Source: an uncultured Chthonomonas sp. (GTDB lineage: Bacteria; Armatimonadota; Chthonomonadetes; Chthonomonadales; CAJBBX01). Taken from it: a stretch of 53,885 nucleotides of DNA. This document shows, piece after piece, positions 38,455 through 49,966 of this stretch; position 1 is the stretch's first letter; every line of letters begins with the position of its first letter. The notes under the pieces are model-generated. The model worked only from the letters and a program-made list of their open reading frames with translations, made no database searches and was not told the origin of the DNA. The stretch lies in NCBI GenBank assembly GCA_903885605.1, contig CAISJD010000181.1, positions 1 through 53,885 on the forward strand. The letters are read 5' to 3'. The translations under genes were made by a program, and so were the position numbers.

Positions 38455-38495
38455 CACCAGGTAGAACCGCCTGCGGGCCTCGGTTGCTGTGGCCG
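38455..38495. repeat. 41-bp direct repeat, left copy (island boundary)
   Basis: Identical to 46519-46559, 8,064 bp to the right. It starts caccaggtag, and an inverted AACCG...CGGTT pair follows a GTAG tetranucleotide, features shared with REP elements mobilised by RAYT transposases. It lies in the leader of the sulfatase gene, 52 bp before the toxin start. Confidence 0.9.
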
Positions 38496-38546: not shown

Positions 38547-38858
38547 ATGGGACAATCGCCGTTCGACGTTCTGTTGGTTACCAGCGCGATTGCCGATCTG
38601 CGCTCCGTGCCTGTACATGCCCGCCGCCGGATCGTCGATGCCGTCAATGAGCAACTCAGCGCCGCACCGCAGGTGCAGACCCGGAACCGGAAGCCTTTGC
38701 CCGGGTTGGCGCCGAACTGGGAGCACTGCCCGCCGGTCTGGGAACTCCGAGTGGGAGACTATCGCGTCTTCTACGATGTAGACGAAGTGGAGCAGAGCGT
38801 GGTTGTTCGAGCCGTGCGCCTGAAGCGGTCAGGCACGACAACGGAGGACATCGTATGA
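38547..38858 (+). CDS. RelE/ParE-family toxin (putative)
   Basis: A 103-aa protein with the RelE/ParE fold pattern: an N-terminal helix pair (HARRRIVDAVNEQL), the KPLPGL turn, then strands WELRVGDYRVFYDVDE and VVVRAVRLK. The core R-x-G-x-Y-R-V-x-Y motif is intact. Such toxins cleave ribosome-bound mRNA or poison gyrase. GAGGAG lies ten bases before the ATG. The gene comes before its antitoxin, sharing an ATGA overlap, the reverse of the usual order. Confidence 0.82.
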   Translation: MGQSPFDVLLVTSAIADLRSVPVHARRRIVDAVNEQLSAAPQVQTRNRKPLPGLAPNWEHCPPVWELRVGDYRVFYDVDEVEQSVVVRAVRLKRSGTTTEDIV

Positions 38859-39097
38859 CCGTGATCGAAGTGGCAAGCCAGGACGCAGCGTTGCGCGAAT
38901 GGCTCAGCCAGGCCCATGGCGGCCGCCTGTTGCTGACGCGTGGCGGTGTGCCCGCGGCCATCGTCACCAGCGTGGATGGGCTCGACCTCGAGGAGATCGC
39001 CACGGCCTCCGATCCTGAGTTCTGGCGGCTCATCAACCAGCGCCGTCAAGAACCGGTAGTCTCTCTGCAGGAAGCTCGACAGGCCCTCGGGTTGTGA
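38855..39097 (+). CDS. Phd/YefM-like antitoxin (putative)
   Basis: An 80-aa protein overlapping the upstream toxin by 4 bp. The pattern resembles Phd/YefM antitoxins: an N-terminal strand-helix (TVIEVASQDAALREWL), RLLLTRGGVPAAIVTSVDGLD (family consensus: V-T-x-x-G-x-P-x-A-V-L-V) and a C-terminal toxin-binding tail ending SLQEARQALG. It would neutralise the preceding toxin and repress the operon. The pairing is inferred from overlap and pattern. Confidence 0.8.
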   Translation: MTVIEVASQDAALREWLSQAHGGRLLLTRGGVPAAIVTSVDGLDLEEIATASDPEFWRLINQRRQEPVVSLQEARQALGL

Positions 39098-39277: not shown

Positions 39278-39341
39278 CTAACCTCCTCGGTACCGGATGG
39301 CGAAGGCCTCGGGCGCCGTAACCGAGGCTAGGCGCAGGCAC
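39278..39341 (-). pseudogene. Relic of a GH36 gene 3' end
   Basis: 39289-39341 matches 47353-47405 (the 3' end of the GH36 gene) at 47 of 53 bases. In the minus-strand frame it still encodes LASVTAPEAFAIRYR before a TAG (39278-39280), against LTSVTAPEAFAIRYR in the intact gene. Nothing further upstream of the GH36 gene is present, so it is a gene-end fragment. The rest of the 39098-39457 gap has no recognised gene; a cataat at 39341-39346 may be a -10 for the operon that follows. Confidence 0.8.
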
Positions 39342-39457
39342 ATAATAGCCCCCGCCCGATGTCGTCATCATGCAGGAAACTCCGTGGCAGTCAACGAATA
39401 GACAAGATGACCGGCGTAAGCAGGCCGCAGATATGCAAGGGGGTAAGCTTCCATCGC

Positions 39458-40687
39458 ATGAGGGCATCCACGAGGTTGTGGCGGCTTGGCGCCGCAGTAA
39501 CGTTGATGGAACTGGCAGTAGGCGCCCTGGGGCAGGCCGTGCCCCATGTGCGCAAGATTGATGCGTCACCATTGGTGGAGCGAATCCGAGCCGCAGTGAC
39601 CGATAGGGGTGTTGATCCGGACATGAACCGGTTCGATTTGGTCTTCGCCTTCATGACGAGCCATTTCGGTTCAGACCCCGGGCATGCCGAGGGCCTCCGG
39701 CAGCTGGCGTCGGACTGCATCAAGCGCTTCGCGGACAACGGCGACCGTGTCGGCATAGCCTCGTGGGAAATGGACATGTGGGACTGGAAGCCGGCTGTTG
39801 CGTTTGTCGCCGCGTCACCCGAAGCGAGGGTGAGCCAGGTTCGTTCGTTACTGCCCCGAACGCCCCGGGCGGGTTCCATTGGCGGACACGACACGGAGCG
39901 CAGTCTCTGTTCGCTCTGGGACAAGCTTGGAGTGCCCGCGGGGCAGTCGGATGTTGTCGTCGTTGTGCTGGGCACCGAGGAAGCCAGCATGCTGCCTCCT
40001 GGCGGTCAGGGCAACCTGCTAGGCGCCGATGCACCCTCCTACGCCTCGCTCACGAGATCGGCCACCCGTCACCCCGCGGTGCGTCTGGCATTCGAGAGCA
40101 GCAAGACTGACGGCACGGACGCTTGGACTCCTCGGACCGCCACCGCCTTTGTCGTGGTGCCGCGACTGCTGGCGGGTCGCCCGGCGCCCAAGCGGGGCAC
40201 TGAGGTGCAGCCGTTCCCGCCTCTGTGGGTGCGGATGCTGCTCTGGTTTCTCGGTGTGTTGGCTGTACTCGTTTCGATGGGCGTTGTCGCCAAGAGGCTC
40301 GTCGGATCGCACACCCCGCGCATCGGCAACCTGAAAGTCGGAGATCGCGACTGGCAGATTCCGGTTTCGGGCGAGTCGTGCAAGTGGAGTGTTGTAGGTG
40401 AGGGATTCGCGGGTGGCGACCCCGACCGCTGCGCCGTCGCCGACACTCTGGATGGTCCGGTGCCGCCGTCCGTGCTAGTTGAGCTAAGGTTCGACGGCAA
40501 GGCGCGAACCGTTACGGTCGCACCGATGCAGGGCATCACGCTGAAGAAGGGCGCCACCGTCTGCTCGGGTCCGATGACGCTGGAACCCGGCAGCACGACG
40601 TTCCGGGTAACCGGGCGGACCGTCTCGCCAGACCCTCTGACGCCCGAGGAGATGTTCGTGGCCGCCATCAAGGTGGGAGCCTCATAG
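39458..40687 (+). CDS. Membrane-anchored vWA-like protein of the tubulin/ZorAB-like operon
   Basis: A 409-aa protein. A signal-type N-terminus (MRASTRLWRLGAAVTL...GALG) leads to an alpha/beta domain (about 30-230) with a vWA-like alternation: strand FDLVFAFMTSHF, helix, strand DRVGIASWEMD, and later DVVVVVLGT. The classical MIDAS DxSxS is not intact. One membrane helix (about 258-278; LLWFLGVLAVLVSMGVV) separates it from a C-terminal beta-rich domain (about 290-400). The ATG at 39458 is favoured because AAGGGGG lies upstream; an ATG at 39359 is the longest option. It is first in the four-gene operon and its composition is clearly less GC-rich than the flanks. No closer family was recognised. 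Confidence 0.55.
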   Translation: MRASTRLWRLGAAVTLMELAVGALGQAVPHVRKIDASPLVERIRAAVTDRGVDPDMNRFDLVFAFMTSHFGSDPGHAEGLRQLASDCIKRFADNGDRVGIASWEMDMWDWKPAVAFVAASPEARVSQVRSLLPRTPRAGSIGGHDTERSLCSLWDKLGVPAGQSDVVVVVLGTEEASMLPPGGQGNLLGADAPSYASLTRSATRHPAVRLAFESSKTDGTDAWTPRTATAFVVVPRLLAGRPAPKRGTEVQPFPPLWVRMLLWFLGVLAVLVSMGVVAKRLVGSHTPRIGNLKVGDRDWQIPVSGESCKWSVVGEGFAGGDPDRCAVADTLDGPVPPSVLVELRFDGKARTVTVAPMQGITLKKGATVCSGPMTLEPGSTTFRVTGRTVSPDPLTPEEMFVAAIKVGAS

Positions 40688-40768
40688 GCACGGGCAAAGC
40701 GCCTGGGCATCACTTGGCCCGCCGGCAGGTGTAGTCGCGGTCTTCTGGGCCGCCGTAAGGAGTATCGG

Positions 40769-43700
40769 ATGGCTGAAACGCTGACAGTGGCAAAGACGCT
40801 CGTGGTAGGATTGGGCTCCAGCGGCTCGGAGGTCTGCGACACCATCGCCCGGCGCATCAAGTGGGAGTACGGCGGCATCGCCAAGACACCGTGGGTCCGC
40901 TTCCTGTGCGTTGAGACCGAGGCCGGCAAGATTCTGCACAACCTGCCGTCGAGCGACCTGGTGGCCCTGACCATCTCGCCCCTTGAGTACTCGCAGGTTA
41001 CGCAGTTTCTGCCCGCCTACGACGAGGCCATTGGACTTCGAGACTGGGCCGACCGCGAGACCATCGCCGAGGTAGAGGGTAGCGCGGTGAGCGACGGAGC
41101 CGGTAACCGCAGGATGGTTGGCCGGCTGGCGCTACTCTTCCCTAAGAACTACCAGGCGGTTCATAACGCGCTGGAGGGGAGGCTCAACCAGCTCCGCGGC
41201 CTGAAGTCGCCGGATGCCAAGGAGGCCCTTGGCAAGCTTGCCGACGGCACTGAACCGCAGGTGGTGTTCAGTAATGCGCAGCAGCTGCGCGTCTTCGTGG
41301 TGGGTTCGCTCTGTGGGGGTACATGCAGCGGGACGGTGAGCGACTTCGGGTACATCATCAGGAGCTTGCTCCATCCCGAAGAGCGCACCGTCGGTGTCTT
41401 CACGCTCCCTCTGCCGACGCTGACCGCACACGATGTCCCGCGCGCCGAGCGATTCAAGAAGAACGCTTACACTGCCCTGACGGAGCTCAATCACTACAGC
41501 CGGATGGGTGTCGTGGAGAAGCCCGATATACGGCTGGGCGGCAAGGTCATCAAGACATCCGCGGAGCGGCCTTACGGTGCGCCTTTTCTGGTTACACCAT
41601 CCAATTCGTCCAGCGATGCCATCCGCAAGATGCACTCTTCAGTGGCTGACAGGATATTCCTGAATGTGTTTGTACCACAGGTCGACTCCTTCTCTAAGCT
41701 CGTCGATGCTGGTATATCAGATCGTAATGGTCATGCCCATGTATTCTGCACATTTGGCCTCTCATCGCTTGAGTTTCCAAAGTACCAGGTGATCGATGCC
41801 TGCGCCAAGAAACTGCTCCTGAAGGCGATCCGCGGCTGGCGGCTGGCGGCCCAAGACGCTGCCGCTGCCAAAGGCACATTGTATGGAGCGGGCTTTGACC
41901 CGAAGGAGGTGAAAGCGCTGCTCCTGAGGACGGACAAGGGGCAGGACATCTCCGTCGTCGTCGGTGACCTGATCAGCAAGATCGTCGATACTGCGGTCAG
42001 GTCGCCGCAGGAGGCGCAGACGCTCCTTGCGTCGCTGCGAGCTGCTTTCACGCCGAATGCCTCATCGACTGTGCTGTCGGGCGGTCTGGCCCCTGGTTGC
42101 GCACCGGCATGGTGCTCCGACCGCGTGGATGAGGCAGTTGAGCATGTGGCCTCGCGCCTCCGTAGCCATATCGAGGTGACGCTGCTGACCGCCAACGGCC
42201 TGTCCGCCACACGCGACCTGCTGGCCCAGGCGAAGGACACTATCGGCGTGTGGCGCACATTGAAGGCCACCAGCGCGAAGGCCTATGAGGAGACGACTAA
42301 TACGGCCCTGAACGCCCTGGAAGGCGGCGGTCCCGGTTGCCTGGCGCTCTGGAAGCGGAAAGAGCGAGCCGACCGCATCGGGGCACTCCGTACTGCACTG
42401 CACGAAGAGCGTGATGCGCACCTCGAGGCGCTCTGGCGCGGTAGCGTCGCTGGTGAATCGGGTGTCGCGGCCCGGCTGGCGCCCGAGGTGATCGATATCT
42501 GGAAGCGCCACTCCTCGCTGTGGGATCGGACCGGACACATGGTTGACCGGCTTGACCGCGAGGTGTCGGAACTGAGCCAGACTGAGCCGGCCGACGTCAA
42601 CGGCAAGACCATCTTTGATGCAGATAGGGACACCGGCACCGTTGCGCTTCGCTACAAGAAGGAGATCGAGGGGCAGAAGCTACCAAAGGAAACCGTCGAG
42701 AACGCTGAAGTCCGTCTGGCGGCGGATGTTCTGACGACCTGGACTGACCTGCCAGGGCAGCTGTTCCCCGGCGCGGAGCCGGACTGGTTGGCGGAGAGTG
42801 TGGACCCGACCGGCGAACTGGTACCGCGAAAGAAAGATGAGGCCCTGATGGACCGTGCGCGTACCAGCTTCCTAAAGCTGATGGGCGAATCTGTCATTGG
42901 GCAACAGGGCCCTCAGTTCGATGCATGGCTTGGTGAGGCGATGAACGCCATGCGCCCATCAGTGCATGTGGATGACGCGCTGGCACAGGAGGGGCAGGTG
43001 TCACCGATCTCGCGGCGCTACATGGTGTTTATCCCAGAGGTGAGTGGCCGCGAGAAGATTTGGGAAGTGCTGGTCGCGAAGGGAGCCCCTTCCAGCCTCG
43101 AAGTGCACGTTTCCCCAGACCCGTCGCGCATTCTGTTCCTTACGGAGTTCCACCGGTTCCCGCTATACGCAGTGCCATCCGTGGTAGCGCAGCAGGGCAG
43201 CTTGGCCCAGGCCAACTGCAATGAGTTCCCGTGGTTCTTTACGAGGAAGGATGTCTACTGGACCGGCCTCTCCCGCGAGGAGCATGACCGCCTGGAGCAG
43301 GCTGAGGAGCTGATCGTGGTCGCGCTCCTTCTTCGCAAGTTGATCCCGCAGGGCGGCAGCCTACGGTTTCCCATCGCGGCCACGCAGTTGGGTGCCCCTG
43401 AAACGGTCGAACTGCCCTACAGCGTTCGAGCAGCAGCCCATGCATTGAACCCCCATCAAGCGTGGGGTGCGGCGAAGGGCTCTAAGTTCTCGCACAAGCT
43501 GGCAGCGCTGGAGGACCTAGTCAACGTTGAGCGAAAGCTTGTGAGTAGCTTGGCATTCGTACAGACGATCAGGAGCGCGTTCAATTCGGGTACAGCCAAT
43601 GAGGTCCCCGAGTTTTCAGACCTTGCGCCTACGGTGTTTCAACGTTACTGCAGCCGTTCTGAGGAGCTGTACAAGGCCTACCGTGAGGTCTTCCCACCTT

Positions 43701-43888
43701 CTGAGGCCAAGATATCGCTCTTGACCCGTATGCGGGGCCAGGTTCGGTCCATCGGCGGGACGTATGAAGAAGCCGGGCTGTACTGCGAGCGTGAGGACTG
43801 CTGTAGTTGGATAGGCAAAGATGCCCGCGAGGCGGCTCAGAACGGATGGCGCTGCTTCGCCGGCGGGCACGACTGTGCACCAAACTGA
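40769..43888 (+). CDS. Tubulin/FtsZ-superfamily (Tubulin_2-like) GTPase, large
   Basis: A 1039-aa soluble protein. The N-terminal Rossmann strand TLVVGLGSSGSEVCDTIARRI (about 10-30) and a modified tubulin signature GGTCSGT at 183-189 (FtsZ/tubulin: GGGTGSG) with DFGYIIRSLL after it identify the tubulin-like GTPase fold. PLPT (about 214-217) and downstream helices fit the same domain. A long, mostly helical region (about 330-960) has no recognisable family. The last 37 residues hold five Cys and a His (C1006, C1011, C1012, C1029, H1034, C1036), a probable zinc site. AAGGAG precedes the ATG. It is followed 87 bp later by the stator-like gene. It may polymerise or switch with GTP; that is inference. 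Confidence 0.78.
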   Translation: MAETLTVAKTLVVGLGSSGSEVCDTIARRIKWEYGGIAKTPWVRFLCVETEAGKILHNLPSSDLVALTISPLEYSQVTQFLPAYDEAIGLRDWADRETIAEVEGSAVSDGAGNRRMVGRLALLFPKNYQAVHNALEGRLNQLRGLKSPDAKEALGKLADGTEPQVVFSNAQQLRVFVVGSLCGGTCSGTVSDFGYIIRSLLHPEERTVGVFTLPLPTLTAHDVPRAERFKKNAYTALTELNHYSRMGVVEKPDIRLGGKVIKTSAERPYGAPFLVTPSNSSSDAIRKMHSSVADRIFLNVFVPQVDSFSKLVDAGISDRNGHAHVFCTFGLSSLEFPKYQVIDACAKKLLLKAIRGWRLAAQDAAAAKGTLYGAGFDPKEVKALLLRTDKGQDISVVVGDLISKIVDTAVRSPQEAQTLLASLRAAFTPNASSTVLSGGLAPGCAPAWCSDRVDEAVEHVASRLRSHIEVTLLTANGLSATRDLLAQAKDTIGVWRTLKATSAKAYEETTNTALNALEGGGPGCLALWKRKERADRIGALRTALHEERDAHLEALWRGSVAGESGVAARLAPEVIDIWKRHSSLWDRTGHMVDRLDREVSELSQTEPADVNGKTIFDADRDTGTVALRYKKEIEGQKLPKETVENAEVRLAADVLTTWTDLPGQLFPGAEPDWLAESVDPTGELVPRKKDEALMDRARTSFLKLMGESVIGQQGPQFDAWLGEAMNAMRPSVHVDDALAQEGQVSPISRRYMVFIPEVSGREKIWEVLVAKGAPSSLEVHVSPDPSRILFLTEFHRFPLYAVPSVVAQQGSLAQANCNEFPWFFTRKDVYWTGLSREEHDRLEQAEELIVVALLLRKLIPQGGSLRFPIAATQLGAPETVELPYSVRAAAHALNPHQAWGAAKGSKFSHKLAALEDLVNVERKLVSSLAFVQTIRSAFNSGTANEVPEFSDLAPTVFQRYCSRSEELYKAYREVFPPSEAKISLLTRMRGQVRSIGGTYEEAGLYCEREDCCSWIGKDAREAAQNGWRCFAGGHDCAPN

Positions 43889-43975
43889 GCGTGATTGGTA
43901 GGTGTCGTGATTCCGCTCGCACCGTGGCACGGAATACCTGTTCGCCGAGCCTGCTGAACAGAGAGAGAACCTGAT

Positions 43976-45712
43976 ATGGCGTCGATAGCTTTTCTTGTGC
44001 CGAGTTTGCAGGCGGCGCCGTTTGTCGTGATGGCGTTCGCGGTTCTGGTCTATGCGTGGCACAGGGCTAGCCTGTTGCGGCAGTCCCTGATGGAAGTCGG
44101 TCTGGGGGACCGTGAGGAGTTCGCGAGCATACAAACTACGCGACCAGGCATTGTTGCCCGCATCGCCGCTCAGCCTAGACCAGTCTGGTTGCTCACGCAC
44201 ATGGTTGTGGCCCTCCACAGAATGCCCAGCCCCGACCTGCGCTTTGCCGTCGAGGCTGCGTTCTCCAGCTACCACACTGCGGTGGGCCATCTTCGGTCGC
44301 TGCCCAGCCTCTGCATGCTCCTCGGCCTGATCGGGACGGTTGTGGGCCTGAGCATGGCTGTGGGCGCCATGGGGCCGCAGGTGATCAAGGCGGCCAACAG
44401 CAGTGATGTCGGTGTGCTCGCCACGACGATTGCTGGTCAGGTCACGGAGTTCAAGACGGCCTTCACGAGCACATTGTGGAGTCTAATCTTTGCAGTTATT
44501 ACGTTCCTGCTTGGTCAGCGTGCTGCCCGCGAAGTCCATGCGTGTACGACTGCTGCCCGAGCCTACGTGCTCGCTGAGGTCGTGCCTCACGTCGTCCCGC
44601 CCTCGCTGCAGGTGTCACTCGACAAGGTGCGCGAGACACTGAACGAGATCGGCGAGGCGACCATGCGGACGACACAGGATATGGCGGCTGCGGCAAGGCC
44701 ACTGGCGGACCAGGTCCGTAGCCTGACGACTGCCACCGACGCCTCAACCAAGAACTTCGAGACTGCATCACGGACGCTTATGTCAAGCGCCACATCAATG
44801 CAGCGCAATCTGTTGCAGCTGTCTGACCTGCAAACCGAAATCAGAACCCAACTACAGGGAGTGCAGGACACCTTCAGGCAGGAGCTTGAGAAGGTCGTAA
44901 GGGCCCAGGGCACTGCTCTGACAGGGTTCACAAAGCGCGCGGATGAGGTCGCCAATCGGCTCTTCGACACTCAGCATGCGCTCTCTACAGGCAGTAGCGC
45001 GATCATCGTCAGGCTCACCGAGGTCAGTGACCTGTTCATCGGCGCCACGCGGCAGTTCAAGGAGGCTGCCGACCGGTTCGACGCGATGTCGCGGGAGGTC
45101 GGCCGGCAGGCCTACGAAGGGCTGGAGGCGCGCGGCTGGCAGATCGCTGAGGCCCTGGGCGAGACGCGGAAGGCCGTCACCGACGTGAGCCGCGACCTCA
45201 ACTACGTGGTGCAGCAGCTAGGTGAGCTGATGGGCCGCCTTAATCCCCAGCTGCTACCTTCTGAGGAGTGGCAACGTCTGCGCGGCGCGCTCGAGTCGGT
45301 AGTGGCTGTCGGTGAGCTGTTCTCCGAGGAGGAGAGCCGCCTGCGCGACACGCTGGCAAGCCAGGTCGGTGGTTTCGACGCGGCAACTCAGGCATTGTCG
45401 GCGGTGCCGCAGAGCCTGGCAGCGGGTCTTCGTTCATTCAGTCACAGCACCGACGGCGCGGCCGCCCATCTGGCTCTTGCCGCGCAGCGTATGCACGAGA
45501 CCTCCACGGCGCTGATGTTGGGCCCAGCGCAGTTCGCTGCGACGATGCAGTCGGCCGCCGCCTCGATCGAGGGCGCAACGGTGGCGCTCACGGAGAGGCT
45601 GGCTTCTGGCTTGACGCCGACCGGCGCTGAAGGTGAGCCCGCGGCCGCCGTGCCCGACATGAACGCGGCCCCGGAGCAGAGCGGTCATGCCGACGGCGTC
45701 GCGCCGCAGTAG
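43976..45712 (+). CDS. MotA/ExbB/ZorA-like proton-channel protein with long helical tail
   Basis: A 578-aa inner-membrane protein. Three membrane helices lie at about 10-28, 108-130 (LPSLCMLLGLIGTVVGLSMAV, with Thr121) and 162-180 (TAFTSTLWSLIFAVITFLL). The second and third match the MotA/TolQ/ExbB channel core. After residue 185 about 390 residues form Ala/Gln/Thr-rich heptad-like helices (KNFETASRTLMSSATSMQ and so on), like the cytoplasmic tail of ZorA in Zorya anti-phage systems. The next gene encodes the MotB/ZorB-like partner. Five MotA-like and two MotB-like subunits per motor would be expected from the family. Confidence 0.85.
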   Translation: MASIAFLVPSLQAAPFVVMAFAVLVYAWHRASLLRQSLMEVGLGDREEFASIQTTRPGIVARIAAQPRPVWLLTHMVVALHRMPSPDLRFAVEAAFSSYHTAVGHLRSLPSLCMLLGLIGTVVGLSMAVGAMGPQVIKAANSSDVGVLATTIAGQVTEFKTAFTSTLWSLIFAVITFLLGQRAAREVHACTTAARAYVLAEVVPHVVPPSLQVSLDKVRETLNEIGEATMRTTQDMAAAARPLADQVRSLTTATDASTKNFETASRTLMSSATSMQRNLLQLSDLQTEIRTQLQGVQDTFRQELEKVVRAQGTALTGFTKRADEVANRLFDTQHALSTGSSAIIVRLTEVSDLFIGATRQFKEAADRFDAMSREVGRQAYEGLEARGWQIAEALGETRKAVTDVSRDLNYVVQQLGELMGRLNPQLLPSEEWQRLRGALESVVAVGELFSEEESRLRDTLASQVGGFDAATQALSAVPQSLAAGLRSFSHSTDGAAAHLALAAQRMHETSTALMLGPAQFAATMQSAAASIEGATVALTERLASGLTPTGAEGEPAAAVPDMNAAPEQSGHADGVAPQ

Positions 45713-45817
45713 ACGGCTGCCGACCTCGCTGTTGTCCACGCATCCTGATACCGGCAGTGTATTGCCGGCGACCGCCCGCACCCGAGCCGGCGGGCGCGCC
45801 AGGCGTGCCGGTCAGTA

Positions 45818-46480
45818 ATGGAAGGCCTGCCCTTGCACAACGAAGACGCCGACGCGACAATGAATCCATACATAGCTTTTACTGATATTTTTCTTAATGT
45901 TGCGCTTATCTTCGCGCTGCTGGCCCCGCTTGTCATGCTCCTCGGGAACAGGGGCTGGGAGGAGACGCGCTACAAGGAGTTCCAGAAGCAGCTGGAGGAG
46001 CGCGTCGTTGCCGATATCCCCAGTCGTACGAGACCAGTGAACGCGCCGCGCAATGATGCGCCGGGAGAGCAACGCTGGGTGTTTCGGAGTTCGGCGCTTT
46101 TCCCGAATGGTTCAACCAGATTGGCTCCACATGGCAGGGACACGCTACGAGCCTTCGCCAAGCTGCTGCTCGATCACGATAAGCTCTGGTGGCGGATCAG
46201 GGTTGAAGCGCATACCAGGCAGTCAGCAGCAGAACCCTCACTGGCCGAGGAGCGTGCGGCCATGACGCTCACTGCCGAGAGGGCCGTCGAGGTTACGATG
46301 TTCCTCTACGGGGAGTGCGGGATCACGCCCAACCGAGTGGTCCCGTCCGGGCGTGGGCACCAAGACCTGACCCCGTCGGTGCCTCGCGACTCGCCTGCCA
46401 ATGACCGAGTGGACTTGCTGGTCCTGCCTGCCACGGTCGGTCGCACCGGCGGTGCCCTTGCAGCCAACCCCGCGCGCTAG
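45818..46480 (+). CDS. MotB/ZorB-like protein with OmpA peptidoglycan-binding domain
   Basis: A 220-aa protein. One N-terminal membrane helix (AFTDIFLNVALIFALLAPLVML) carries Asp23, in the place of the essential protonatable Asp of MotB, ExbD and ZorB. The rest (about 75-210) is OmpA-like: FRSSALFPNGSTRL, RIRVEAHT, LTAERAVEVTMFLY, the GRGHQDLTPS loop and NDRVDLLVLP. It should anchor the stator to peptidoglycan. Ribosome sites are weak at both the ATG at 45818 and at Met15 (45860), and either may be used. It closes the operon; a 41-bp repeat follows 38 bp after the stop. Confidence 0.85.
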   Translation: MEGLPLHNEDADATMNPYIAFTDIFLNVALIFALLAPLVMLLGNRGWEETRYKEFQKQLEERVVADIPSRTRPVNAPRNDAPGEQRWVFRSSALFPNGSTRLAPHGRDTLRAFAKLLLDHDKLWWRIRVEAHTRQSAAEPSLAEERAAMTLTAERAVEVTMFLYGECGITPNRVVPSGRGHQDLTPSVPRDSPANDRVDLLVLPATVGRTGGALAANPAR

Positions 46481-46518
46481 CAGATCACACACGAATGGTG
46501 GCCTGCCAGTTCATCCAT

Positions 46519-46559
46519 CACCAGGTAGAACCGCCTGCGGGCCTCGGTTGCTGTGGCCG
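46519..46559. repeat. 41-bp direct repeat, right copy (island boundary)
   Basis: Exact match to 38455-38495. It sits between the ZorB-like stop and the RAYT stop, 57 bp from the latter. Either an attachment/recombination scar or a REP element mobilised by the adjacent RAYT would explain it. Confidence 0.9.
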
Positions 46560-46616
46560 TGGTCATGGCGCCTGGCGCCTCCGATCCAACCATTGTGGTC
46601 TGCGCGCCCGATCTGC

Positions 46617-47258
46617 CTACCCGCACCAGGCCGGCTCTGGTTCGTCCATCGAGGCCGCGGGGTTCTCGTGGTCAAAGGCCCATTGCATTGGGTTATCGAT
46701 GATGTACTGACGAATGCGGTTGAGATCATCTTCGTCTCGTATGATGTGTTCATAGTAGTTGCGTTGCCAGACGGGATGGCCATGAAGGTCTCTCGAAACA
46801 TTAATGCTCCGCGCCGAGAAGGTCTTGAACCCCCGCACGACCTCGGGCAGGCCATGTTGCCGCGGTGGGATCGCATCGACGGGCGCCGGGCCGTCTACGG
46901 TCTCGGTCGCTGCGGGACCCGGGGCAGCGCCGGCGGTCAGATGCGGCTGAACACCACCGGTCAGCACGATGACGGCATGCACATGGTTCGGCATCACGAC
47001 AAACGCGTCGAGGCGGACGTTGCCGTAATGGTCAGGCAGACCGCCCCATGTTGCCTGCACGATGATCCCCGCCTCGTTCAGACGCATAGCGCCGTCCACC
47101 AGATCGCCGAAGAGGCAGGTGCGGTTCCGTGTACAGATCGTCACGAAGTACGCGCCGGCATGTGCATAGTCGTATCCGCGCAAACGGATTGACCGCCGAC
47201 GGCGCGGTTCCGGGGTAGGGGCGGGTTTGAAACCCGCCCCTACGGTATCATCGACCAT
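46617..47258 (-). mobile_element. RAYT: REP-associated Y1 (IS200-like) transposase gene
   Basis: A 213-aa TnpA_REP protein. Residues 35-50 (AYFVTICTRNRTCLFG), the HUH motif at His92-x-His94 (MPNHVH) and the RNYYEHIIRDEDDLNRIRQYIIDNP C-terminus with candidate nucleophile Tyr168/169 are all typical. Single-domain RAYTs of this type excise and insert palindromic REP elements as single strands. The gene's first codons (VGAGFKPAP) are encoded by a perfect palindrome, and two more lie just upstream, so it is embedded in its own REPs. It is probably active or recently active. Confidence 0.92.
47215..47243. repeat. REP palindrome 1
   Basis: gtaggggcgggttt-g-aaacccgcccctac: 14-bp perfect arms around one base. 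It begins GTAG and ends CTAC, the usual signature of RAYT-linked REPs, and overlaps the RAYT start codons. Confidence 0.93.
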
Positions 47259-47295
47259 GGATGCCTCTCCCGCCGGGGATCATGGGCTCTGGTAT

Positions 47296-47315
47296 GGGGG
47301 CGGGTTTGAAACCCG
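47296..47315. repeat. Partial REP palindrome
   Basis: gggggcgggtttgaaacccg, the inner part of the same palindrome with its right arm cut short, immediately before a complete copy. It suggests successive insertions at one spot. Confidence 0.75.
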
Positions 47316-47316
47316 G

Positions 47317-47345
47317 GTAGGGGCGGGTTTGAAACCCGCCCCTAC
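47317..47345. repeat. REP palindrome 2, containing the GH36 stop codon
   Basis: A complete 29-bp copy identical to 47215-47243. The TAG stop of the GH36 gene (47342-47344, minus strand) lies inside its CTAC end, so the insertion set the gene's present C-terminus or landed exactly at it. Confidence 0.92.
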
Positions 47346-49966
47346 TTCCGCCGGTATCGGATGGCGAAGGCCTCGGGCGCTGTGACCGAGGTCAGGCGCA
47401 GGCCCTTGTCGGCCAGGTCGCGGCCGGTTGCGGTGGTCTCTGTGCCGTTGTCGAGGTTGCGGAGGATGTAGGTCGCCCTCCGGTCGATGCCCTTGAGCTT
47501 GAGGCGGATCTCGGCGTCGGGGCTTTCGTTGCGGCGGAAGGCCTGCACGGCGCCTTCGCCCTGCTCGGGCAGGTCGAACTGCCAGGCGATCCATGCCTTG
47601 GGGTCCTGGCTCGTGGGCGTCAGCGGGTAGTAGTCGCCGGTGTAGGTGCGGCTCAGGTCGCGCCAGGCGGCCAGGAGCTTGCGGAGGTGGTCGTAGTCCA
47701 GGTCCGGCTCCCGCACGTCAATACCGGAACCGAGGCTGGGCGCGGCGTTGCTCCAGAAGGCGTAGGGCTGCACGGGCGTCTTGCCGCCGCCGTAGTAGGG
47801 CGCGCCGTCGGAGGCCACGGTGCCGGTGCCGTGGTACGGCAGCCACATGGAGATGCCGTAGGTCATGCACTGGTGGCCGATGGCCTCGTAGGCGTAGTCG
47901 CTGCGCCAGAGCGGCACGGAGCGGCGCATGGTCTCCAGGTCGTTGCGGCGTCCGCCGGAGGCGCAGGAGTCGATGAGCATGTCCGGATGCCTCCGGCGCA
48001 GCTCATCCCAGTAGGCCAGGTAGCCCATGACATGCTTGATCTCGGTGATGCCCTGCCGGTCGGGTGCGTCGTTGGCGCGCCAGAAGCCCAGCGGGTCGAT
48101 GTTGAAGTCCTGCCGGTAGAGGCCGATGCCGTTGTCGGTGATGAGCTGGTCGACGTGCTCGACGAGCCACTTCCAGGCCTCGGGATTGCCCAGGTTCAGC
48201 AGCTTCTGCCCGCTGTCGGAGCCCTTGGCGCGCTGCGTGTGGAGCGCGAAGGCGGCCGCAACCGGCGCGGGTCCGGCGGGCATCCAGCCGTAGCTCCAGG
48301 GACCGGTCGGGTTCTTCTCATGCGAGAACCCCTTGGCGGCGTCGTAGACCTTGCCGTCGGGACCGGTGAGCGCTACCTCGAGGCCGGTGGAGTCGCACTG
48401 GTGCGTGCCGTTGCCCCAGCCCACCACGAAGTCCAGCGTTTCGCCAGCGGCCAGCGTGACGGTTCCGCCGTGCCGGGCCTCGCGACCCGCGCCGTTGAGG
48501 CCGATGAACCCGTCGAACAGCGGCTTGCCTGCCTGCAGCACGTGGACATCGGTGGTGGTCTTCTCGTCGATGCCCCGGAAGGCGGCCTCCAGGCGGTAGT
48601 CGCCGGCGGCGGGGCAGGTCCAGCGCACGACGCTGTACTCGCCCTTGGGGCCGGGGTGGAAGGAGAGGCGGCCGGGCTCCCAGAGGATGCCGGACATGCG
48701 GATGTCGCGGTCGGAGCTGTTGAAGGCCACGCCGGGGTCGGGTCCGCCGAGGTCGGAGCGCCAGGCCAGGAGGCCCGCCATGGCGTCGGCGCGGCCGGGG
48801 TCGGCGGAGAGGAGCCACTCAGGGTGCGTCTCATAGAGCCAGGTGCCGGGGGCCACGCGCTCGGGCTCGAACCAGACGAGGATGCGGCCGCCCTTGGACC
48901 GGGCCCGGTCGCTGATGGGCTTGAAGCCGCGCGGGAAGCGCTTGGGATCGACCTCCCAGGTGCCCACCTGCGGCCACCCCTGCTGCTGCACGTACCATCC
49001 GGCGTCCATCCACCAGTAGTCGAGCTTGAGGCCCAGCTCGGCGTAGCGGTCGATGTGCATGATCTGGTTCGCCTCATTGGCGCCGATCATCTCCTCGTAG
49101 GCCCGGGAGCTGCTGGCCACGAACTGCGGCGGCGGGAGCTTGCCGCCGGGCTTCGGCATGCTGTGGGTCCCCATCCAGCGGCGCCATAGGTTCTGCCCGC
49201 GCACCCAGTCCTCGCCCTTGCCGGCCTGCCACCAGAGGAGCGCCATGAGCGGCGAGCGGACCTCTTCGCCGGGGTGCAGCACGAAGTGCGTGAGCTCCTG
49301 CCCGGCACGGAGGCGCACCTCGCCGGGACCGGTGCGAGCGAACTCGGACGACCACTGGCCGGGCCAGCCAACGGCGGCGACGACCCCGCGACCGCCCCAC
49401 TCCAGGTTGAAGTAGGACATATCGGAGTTCGTGGGACGACCGCCGGCGGCGCCGATGCGCTTGACGGCCCCTGCGGGCAGCGGGGTGACGAGGGGGCTGT
49501 AGTCCGACTTGTTGGCGGGCGAGCCCACGTTGTGGTGCAGGATCGGGTCGCCGCCGGAGCCGGCGATGCCGACGTCGATGGACCGGATGTCCTGAAGCAG
49601 GGCCGTGTCGGCGCCGCCGGTGTTCTTGAACCAGAGGGTCCACTCAACCACCGGGTAGTCGGCATAGGCCACGGCCACACACCGCACCTGCAGGCCGGCG
49701 GCGGGATCGGTCCAGGTGGTGGTGGTTCGGGTGCGGCCGTCCTCCAGCTTCTCGGCCGAGCGCTTGCGCGGCCAGGCGGCCAGCAGCTGCGCCGAGGGTT
49801 TGCCGCCGTAGGTGAAGGAGAAGGGCGCCGCTTCCGCGCCGGACTGCAGGTGCGCGCGGGTCCAGCCCCGTGCAGCGGTCATCTCGGTCCGGCTGGGCGC
49901 CACGGCTTGCGACGAAACCGCCAGGCATGCCAGCAGGGCAAGCGCGATCACGAGGGTCGGGTTCAT
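47342..49966 (-). CDS. Secreted GH36-type alpha-galactosidase-like protein with inserted beta-sandwich
   Basis: An 874-aa exported protein (signal peptide 1-22, SSQAVA). An N-terminal beta-sandwich precedes the GH36 barrel: LDYWWMDAGWY, VWFEPERVAPGTWL, nucleophile Asp620 in YRQDFN, CASGGRRNDLETMRR, and acid/base Asp690 in WRSDY. Between the WFEPERV and YRQDFN strands about 150 extra residues form a carbohydrate-binding-like sandwich (FNSSDRDIRMSG to TGLEVAL), an unusual insertion within the barrel. AAGGAGGAG precedes the ATG. It is the second gene of an operon, 26 bp after the GH39-like gene. Release of alpha-linked galactose or a related sugar is expected; the exact linkage is unknown. Confidence 0.9.
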   Translation of the reverse strand: MNPTLVIALALLACLAVSSQAVAPSRTEMTAARGWTRAHLQSGAEAAPFSFTYGGKPSAQLLAAWPRKRSAEKLEDGRTRTTTTWTDPAAGLQVRCVAVAYADYPVVEWTLWFKNTGGADTALLQDIRSIDVGIAGSGGDPILHHNVGSPANKSDYSPLVTPLPAGAVKRIGAAGGRPTNSDMSYFNLEWGGRGVVAAVGWPGQWSSEFARTGPGEVRLRAGQELTHFVLHPGEEVRSPLMALLWWQAGKGEDWVRGQNLWRRWMGTHSMPKPGGKLPPPQFVASSSRAYEEMIGANEANQIMHIDRYAELGLKLDYWWMDAGWYVQQQGWPQVGTWEVDPKRFPRGFKPISDRARSKGGRILVWFEPERVAPGTWLYETHPEWLLSADPGRADAMAGLLAWRSDLGGPDPGVAFNSSDRDIRMSGILWEPGRLSFHPGPKGEYSVVRWTCPAAGDYRLEAAFRGIDEKTTTDVHVLQAGKPLFDGFIGLNGAGREARHGGTVTLAAGETLDFVVGWGNGTHQCDSTGLEVALTGPDGKVYDAAKGFSHEKNPTGPWSYGWMPAGPAPVAAAFALHTQRAKGSDSGQKLLNLGNPEAWKWLVEHVDQLITDNGIGLYRQDFNIDPLGFWRANDAPDRQGITEIKHVMGYLAYWDELRRRHPDMLIDSCASGGRRNDLETMRRSVPLWRSDYAYEAIGHQCMTYGISMWLPYHGTGTVASDGAPYYGGGKTPVQPYAFWSNAAPSLGSGIDVREPDLDYDHLRKLLAAWRDLSRTYTGDYYPLTPTSQDPKAWIAWQFDLPEQGEGAVQAFRRNESPDAEIRLKLKGIDRRATYILRNLDNGTETTATGRDLADKGLRLTSVTAPEAFAIRYRRK

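Follow-up and report, generated by a model that had tools for sequence, protein, structure and literature searches.

A mobile four-gene operon in an Armatimonadota genome joins a predicted FtsZl1-type tubulin-fold GTPase to a ZorA-like motor gene pair and a vWA-like membrane protein

Operons in which a gene of the tubulin-related FtsZl1 family is accompanied by genes for vWA and OmpA proteins were described in 2010 by Makarova and Koonin, whose main text lists cyanobacteria and Deinococcus among the members of the family and proposes a role in membrane remodelling; a reviewer of that paper questioned how a filament in the cytosol could work together with partners in the periplasm (PMC2875224). 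Tubulin-vWA genes were assigned to biological-conflict systems in the main text of Kaur et al. 2020 (PMC7159879). An earlier note on the DNA analysed here regarded the composition of the operon as undescribed, which does not hold for the tubulin-vWA pair or for the tubulin-vWA-OmpA part, the latter known since 2010; its conserved motor partner, and its occurrence on plasmids and in defence islands, appear to be new. In the openly readable main texts of the literature that we found, the combinations of Zorya with tubulin, of tubulin with antiphage function and of ExbB with tubulin were not described.

The window, i.e., the whole stretch of 53,885 nucleotides that was analysed, contains four plus-strand reading frames, all open, spanning 39458-46480 with intergenic gaps of 81–105 bp, consistent with a single operon. 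Pfam searches on the four proteins matched Tubulin_2 with 195.1 bits (cut-off 27), OmpA with 38.6 bits (cut-off 27.2) and MotA_ExbB with 25.7 bits, barely above its cut-off of 22.9. The features of the operon are as follows:

39458..40687, + strand: vWA-like membrane protein, 409 aa (AF2 model, Foldseek, VIA-align and alignment with cyanobacterial counterparts)
40769..43888, + strand: Tubulin_2 / FtsZl1 protein, a predicted GTPase, 1039 aa (Pfam PF13809 with 195 bits, AF2, Foldseek/VIA and alignment)
41312..41332, + strand: predicted tubulin/FtsZ-type GTP-binding T4 loop, CGGTCSG (sequence and alignments)
43976..45712, + strand: ZorA-like MotA/TolQ/ExbB channel protein, 578 aa (Pfam PF01618, channel-domain profile and alignment)
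45818..46480, + strand: MotB/ZorB-like protein, 220 aa (Pfam OmpA, Asp23 alignment and profile matches)

The identical four-gene order was found in cyanobacteria (53 complete loci), in other Armatimonadota and on four Deinococcus plasmids, and loci L074 and L086 show it; since this order recurs in three phyla, the operon stands above a chance arrangement. The proposal of the earlier note that four consecutive genes form a unit was thus borne out, with exact coordinates and with conservation in other phyla.

The first protein had no match in the Pfam profile search, and its structure was therefore used. Its AF2 model, with a mean pLDDT of 79 and values mostly above 90 in the vWA region, comprises a signal helix, an alpha/beta domain, a single TM helix and a beta-rich tail, which correspond to a signal peptide (residues 2-23), a vWA domain (~30-235), a TM segment (256-281) and an FHA-like tail (~289-408). 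Foldseek matched the domain to vWA structures with probabilities of 0.96-0.99 and the tail to FHA domains with a probability of ~0.9, while the VIA-align list consisted mostly of vWA domains, with the best Z of 10.5 for the CLCA1 vWA domain (135 residues, rmsd 3.4). These comparisons bear out the signal- and TM-bearing vWA-like protein of the earlier note. The model predicts that the vWA domain lies on the periplasmic side and the FHA-like tail in the cytosol. In the alignment, the cyanobacterial counterparts have an intact MIDAS (DxTxS; AIDLTESVG), which is absent from the window protein, where the site is degenerate (AFMTSHFG(S)); an intact MIDAS is a majority trait of the FtsZl1-vWA-OmpA family and is not obligatory.

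For the second protein, searching the PDB with a profile of the full-length tubulin returned coil-type matches only, so structure comparison was needed. Its AF2 model (pLDDT 84) matched CetZ, FtsZ and tubulin in Foldseek with a probability of 1.00; in VIA the best CetZ chain gave a Z of 25.8 over 321 residues at an rmsd of 6.8, two other CetZ chains gave Z values of 24-25 at rmsd 4.1-4.3, and FtsZ gave 22-23. As the structure alignments span residue 7 to ~800-840, the tubulin-matching parts flank a helical insertion of ~380 residues on both sides, that is, a tubulin-fold core (~1-360) and a further tubulin-matching part (~740-840) enclose the insertion (~364-740). The tubulin signatures reported earlier are thereby joined by a predicted tubulin fold. 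Residues G16, G19, G183, G184, T185 and G188 were invariant across the 28 sequences of the Tubulin_2 alignment, and the conserved T4 loop CGGTCSG is a family variant of GGGTGSG; a search of genome contigs with the most conserved stretch of this loop led to the relatives. The three conserved C-terminal cysteines (C1006, C1011 and C1029) probably form a zinc ribbon.

Tubulin_2 proteins were present in 84 of 291 Armatimonadota genomes and, over the cut-off, in 56 of 291 cyanobacteria; the distribution is therefore patchy. Among 62 cyanobacterial loci, which were found via one conserved peptide and are mutually related rather than independent samples, the channel gene followed the tubulin gene in 58 of the 59 testable cases and the OmpA gene came next in 53 of 54, a MIDAS-bearing vWA gene lay upstream of the tubulin gene in 56 of 59, and all genes were found in 53 of 62. 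This cyanobacterial operon looks clade-specific and vertical. The four Deinococcus plasmids have the same order plus a small TM gene between the vWA and tubulin genes, and on the D. radiophilus plasmid the tubulin gene is interrupted by a transposase. Two Deinococcus loci, L221 (15073-20260) and L222 (12682-18023), carry after the OmpA gene a repeat protein of ~860-880 aa (LRV/DUF2336 in L222) and a right-handed beta-helix protein, both of them possible extra components.

The tubulin tree groups the window protein with the Deinococcus plasmids, with a Hydrogenedentota contig and with loci L074 and L086 in one clade (100/100). Inside this clade lies L068, which is without the motor. At L068 (3836-12687), the place of the motor is taken by two proteins, one a vWA protein with a MIDAS (VDASRSM), the other 774 aa long and beginning like actin/HSP70 (VALDLGSDSM). 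Loci with the tubulin core but no motor are frequent, and the trees require at least 4-6 changes between presence and absence of the motor, which is therefore an exchangeable partner of the tubulin-vWA core.

The channel protein has three hydrophobic TM segments followed by a coiled-coil tail of ~390 residues, and all 12 aligned sequences share T121 of its GLxGT motif. The OmpA protein has one TM segment with Asp23 (45884-45886), invariant in 14/14 OmpA proteins, and a periplasmic peptidoglycan-binding domain, and its profile matches MotB, PomB and ZorB; Asp23 corresponds to the aspartate reported as critical in ZorB, D24 or D21 (PMC11890865). By analogy with their families, the two proteins would form a 5:2 motor of MotAB/ZorAB type. 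Because long coils inflate ZorA matches, the comparison with ZorA was redone on the channel domain alone, and among solved structures this profile matched ZorA (8vvn/8qyh) with 41 and 37 bits, TolQ with 24 and PomA with 14. The description of the pair as ZorAB-like motor genes is upheld in so far as ZorA, rather than TolQ or the MotA type, is the nearest match of the channel; by sequence it is ZorA-like, though far under the curated ZorA cut-off (NCBIfam ZorA_2, NF033915: 21.1 bits against 100). A search of the whole phylum with the PADLOC ZorA1 profile gave mostly coiled-coil matches and was uninformative.

We consider it very unlikely that the operon represents a further type of Zorya proper, in which the tubulin-like protein would serve as effector. 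The nearness of the channel domain to ZorA, the long ZorA-like tail and the PADLOC ZorA/ZorB matches of the motor pair, at 1e-7 to 1e-8, would agree with such an assignment; the PADLOC ZorA profile, however, is dominated by coils, the cut-off of the curated model is not reached, and the tubulin core can exchange its motor partner. The Zorya effectors are missing as well: a PADLOC scan of the operon proteins gave no match to ZorC, ZorD, ZorE, ZorF or ZorG, in agreement with the earlier note.

Comparison with a genome of the same genus (G001) revealed that the operon lies within an inserted block:

39340..47344: inserted block of ~8.0 kb with the four genes and a Y1 transposase (blastn to contig C175 of G001, junctions and GC)
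39288..39339 (left) and 47352..47403 (right): the two copies of a direct repeat of 52 bp (90%), derived from the 3' end of the neighbouring gene
38455..38495 (left) and 46519..46559 (right): the two copies of a direct repeat of 41 bp (perfect), which flank the block

The flanking genes are 8.8 kb apart in the window and 225 bp apart in G001, and both flanks are collinear with G001 at ~90% identity (blastn), for which reason a chimeric assembly was set aside. The GC content of the operon genes is 62-64%, against ~70% in the flanking genes. Both pairs of direct repeats have the same spacing of 8064 bp, and the sequence between their members is wholly different on the two sides. A ParE-type toxin gene is followed by a small antitoxin-like ORF (38857-39096; together 38547-39096), and a remnant of the 3' end of this ORF persists at the empty site of G001. 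The IS200/Y1-type transposase (46617-47345, minus strand) lies beside copies of the palindrome GTAGGGGCGGGTTTGAAACCCGCCCCTAC and resembles REP-associated transposases.

Tubulin_2 was absent from two genomes of the same genus, one of them G001, and a MotA/ExbB gene was absent from these two and from two genomes of the same family; since the two same-genus genomes are without a MotA/ExbB gene, the operon is accessory. A gain in the lineage of the window is the simpler reading, with loss of the operon in its relatives as the other. The earlier note had considered a core, vertically inherited set of housekeeping genes; we found a mobile, accessory locus with an empty site within the genus. The same absences bear on the idea that the pair is a Tol-Pal/Ton-like motor for envelope maintenance, transport or surface motility, regulated or localised by the GTPase, which we regard as unlikely. 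Although the channel protein is the only member of the MotA/ExbB family encoded in its own genome, TolQ ranks second, behind ZorA, among the solved relatives and the OmpA peptidoglycan-binding domain is present, the four relatives without such a gene argue that the lineage has no such need, the tubulin core is frequently without a motor, and TolA/TolB/Pal, TonB or flagellar genes were not recognised beside the operon.

The recognised neighbours of the window operon are a sulfatase, the ParE toxin, the transposase and catabolic genes; apart from the ParE-type toxin, no defence gene adjoins it, and nothing toxic or nucleolytic is encoded in the operon. Relatives, however, lie in other surroundings. 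Locus L081 adjoins ArdC, serine recombinase, Abi_C and Mrr genes, the operon of Deinococcus QL22 adjoins genes for an AAA protein and a DUF2357/PD-(D/E)XK protein, and that of a D. deserti plasmid adjoins PD-(D/E)XK and UvrD genes. On a Meiothermus taiwanensis plasmid (L227, 2199-15395) a vWA-tubulin pair lies within a defence island, between HmaC (1155 bits) and BrxL, and the Thermus and Allomeiothermus pairs, likewise on Thermaceae plasmids, adjoin BrxL. These Thermaceae pairs beside BrxL and HmaC have no annotated motor gene and therefore speak for the tubulin-vWA core only. Loci L223 and L228 resemble L227, and in all three an unnamed protein of ~680 aa follows the tubulin gene; on an Azospirillum plasmid (L229, 8941-18693), a Tubulin_2 gene lies near several genes of the caspase and OmpA families. 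An enrichment near defence genes, for which the earlier note had suggested a search, was not visible in a small flank scan, in which PADLOC on 94 flanking proteins of 12 operon loci gave no excess over 92 control-region proteins; the test is weak, the control list being swollen by methyltransferase and TnpB/Cas12f-like families. Nevertheless, several relatives are on plasmids or in defence islands, contrary to what would be expected of a locus never found near defence genes, and a role in defence is plausible because relatives have BrxL, HmaC, Abi_C, Mrr and PD-(D/E)XK genes as neighbours. The assignment of tubulin-vWA genes to conflict systems in 2020 (PMC7159879) is an independent argument in this direction.

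These settings also bear on membrane remodelling or vesicle formation, in which the GTPase would polymerise on the inner membrane, the vWA and OmpA proteins would tether it and the motor would supply force across the envelope. This is the published proposal for the FtsZl1 family (PMC2875224, main text), and it agrees with the membrane linkage of every partner, with the tubulin fold of the model and with the conserved, clade-specific cyanobacterial operon. We nevertheless judge it somewhat unlikely here, since the insertion/absence polymorphism within one genus, the plasmids and the defence-island neighbours better fit an accessory conflict module, and the reviewer's question cited above weighs against it.

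Based on mobility, patchiness and neighbours, we infer a role in conflict rather than in housekeeping: we see about an even chance that the operon encodes a self-contained, horizontally transferred, motorised FtsZl1 envelope machine, most likely for biological conflict, i.e., directed against phages or mobile elements. The vertical look of the cyanobacterial operon, the flank scan, the window's own neighbours and the lack of a toxic or nucleolytic product speak against this reading. In such a machine, the channel and OmpA proteins would form an ion-driven rotary motor of the MotAB/ZorAB type, anchored in the peptidoglycan and with its coiled tail in the cytoplasm. The vWA protein would be a sensor or adaptor, with its vWA domain in the periplasm and its FHA-like domain in the cytoplasm, and the tubulin-fold GTPase would occupy the place of the nuclease effectors of Zorya. 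The state of the motor or of the vWA protein would recruit the GTPase or switch its nucleotide state, and the GTPase would assemble at the membrane as a response module. The motor tail or the FHA-like domain may contact the GTPase, so that motor and GTPase could be physically coupled. More specifically, we tentatively propose a mobile immune machine in which a ZorAB-like motor is coupled mechanically or allosterically to the tubulin-superfamily GTPase and envelope sensing triggers assembly at the membrane.

If the motor and the tubulin-like GTPase cooperate, bacteria would possess a rotary ion motor linked to a cytoskeletal protein in a setting other than division or flagella, and the outputs of Zorya-like motors would be widened beyond nucleases; if the coupled immune machine is real, it would bring a cytoskeletal effector into bacterial immunity. 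For the uncharacterised FtsZl1 family, the motor is a concrete partner with a residue that can be put to the test (Asp23); filamentous cyanobacteria and Deinococcus are tractable laboratory hosts.

Compared with the FtsZl1 operons of 2010, the window likewise combines a member of this tubulin family with vWA and OmpA genes in a single operon, although its vWA protein has lost the MIDAS that most of the family retain. The main text of that paper, supplements aside, names no MotA/ExbB channel gene, whereas the window has one; it treats the OmpA proteins as beta-barrel components of the outer membrane, whereas that of the window and its ZorA-like channel would together make up a motor; and it leaves the C-terminal domain of the tubulin unplaced, whereas the model of the window protein has tubulin-matching parts on either side of a helical insertion. 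The DO-GTPase/GAP1 systems of 2020 comprise tubulin, HSP70 and vWA components and, according to the main text (PMC7159879), share with the window a tubulin with a helical or coiled extension, a vWA protein that is bound to the membrane and has a beta-rich domain, closeness to the membrane and a proposed conflict role. DO-GTPase and GAP1 genes were not recognised among the genes adjoining the window operon, and MotA is absent from that main text, while the window carries a MotA-type channel. With Zorya (PMC11890865) the window has in common a long-tailed channel, a peptidoglycan-binding partner with the motor aspartate and a gene for a cytosolic partner; in place of a nuclease/helicase effector it has the tubulin-fold GTPase and the vWA/FHA-like protein. 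We use Zorya as a working analogy and not as a membership, in the sense that the operon may work like Zorya.
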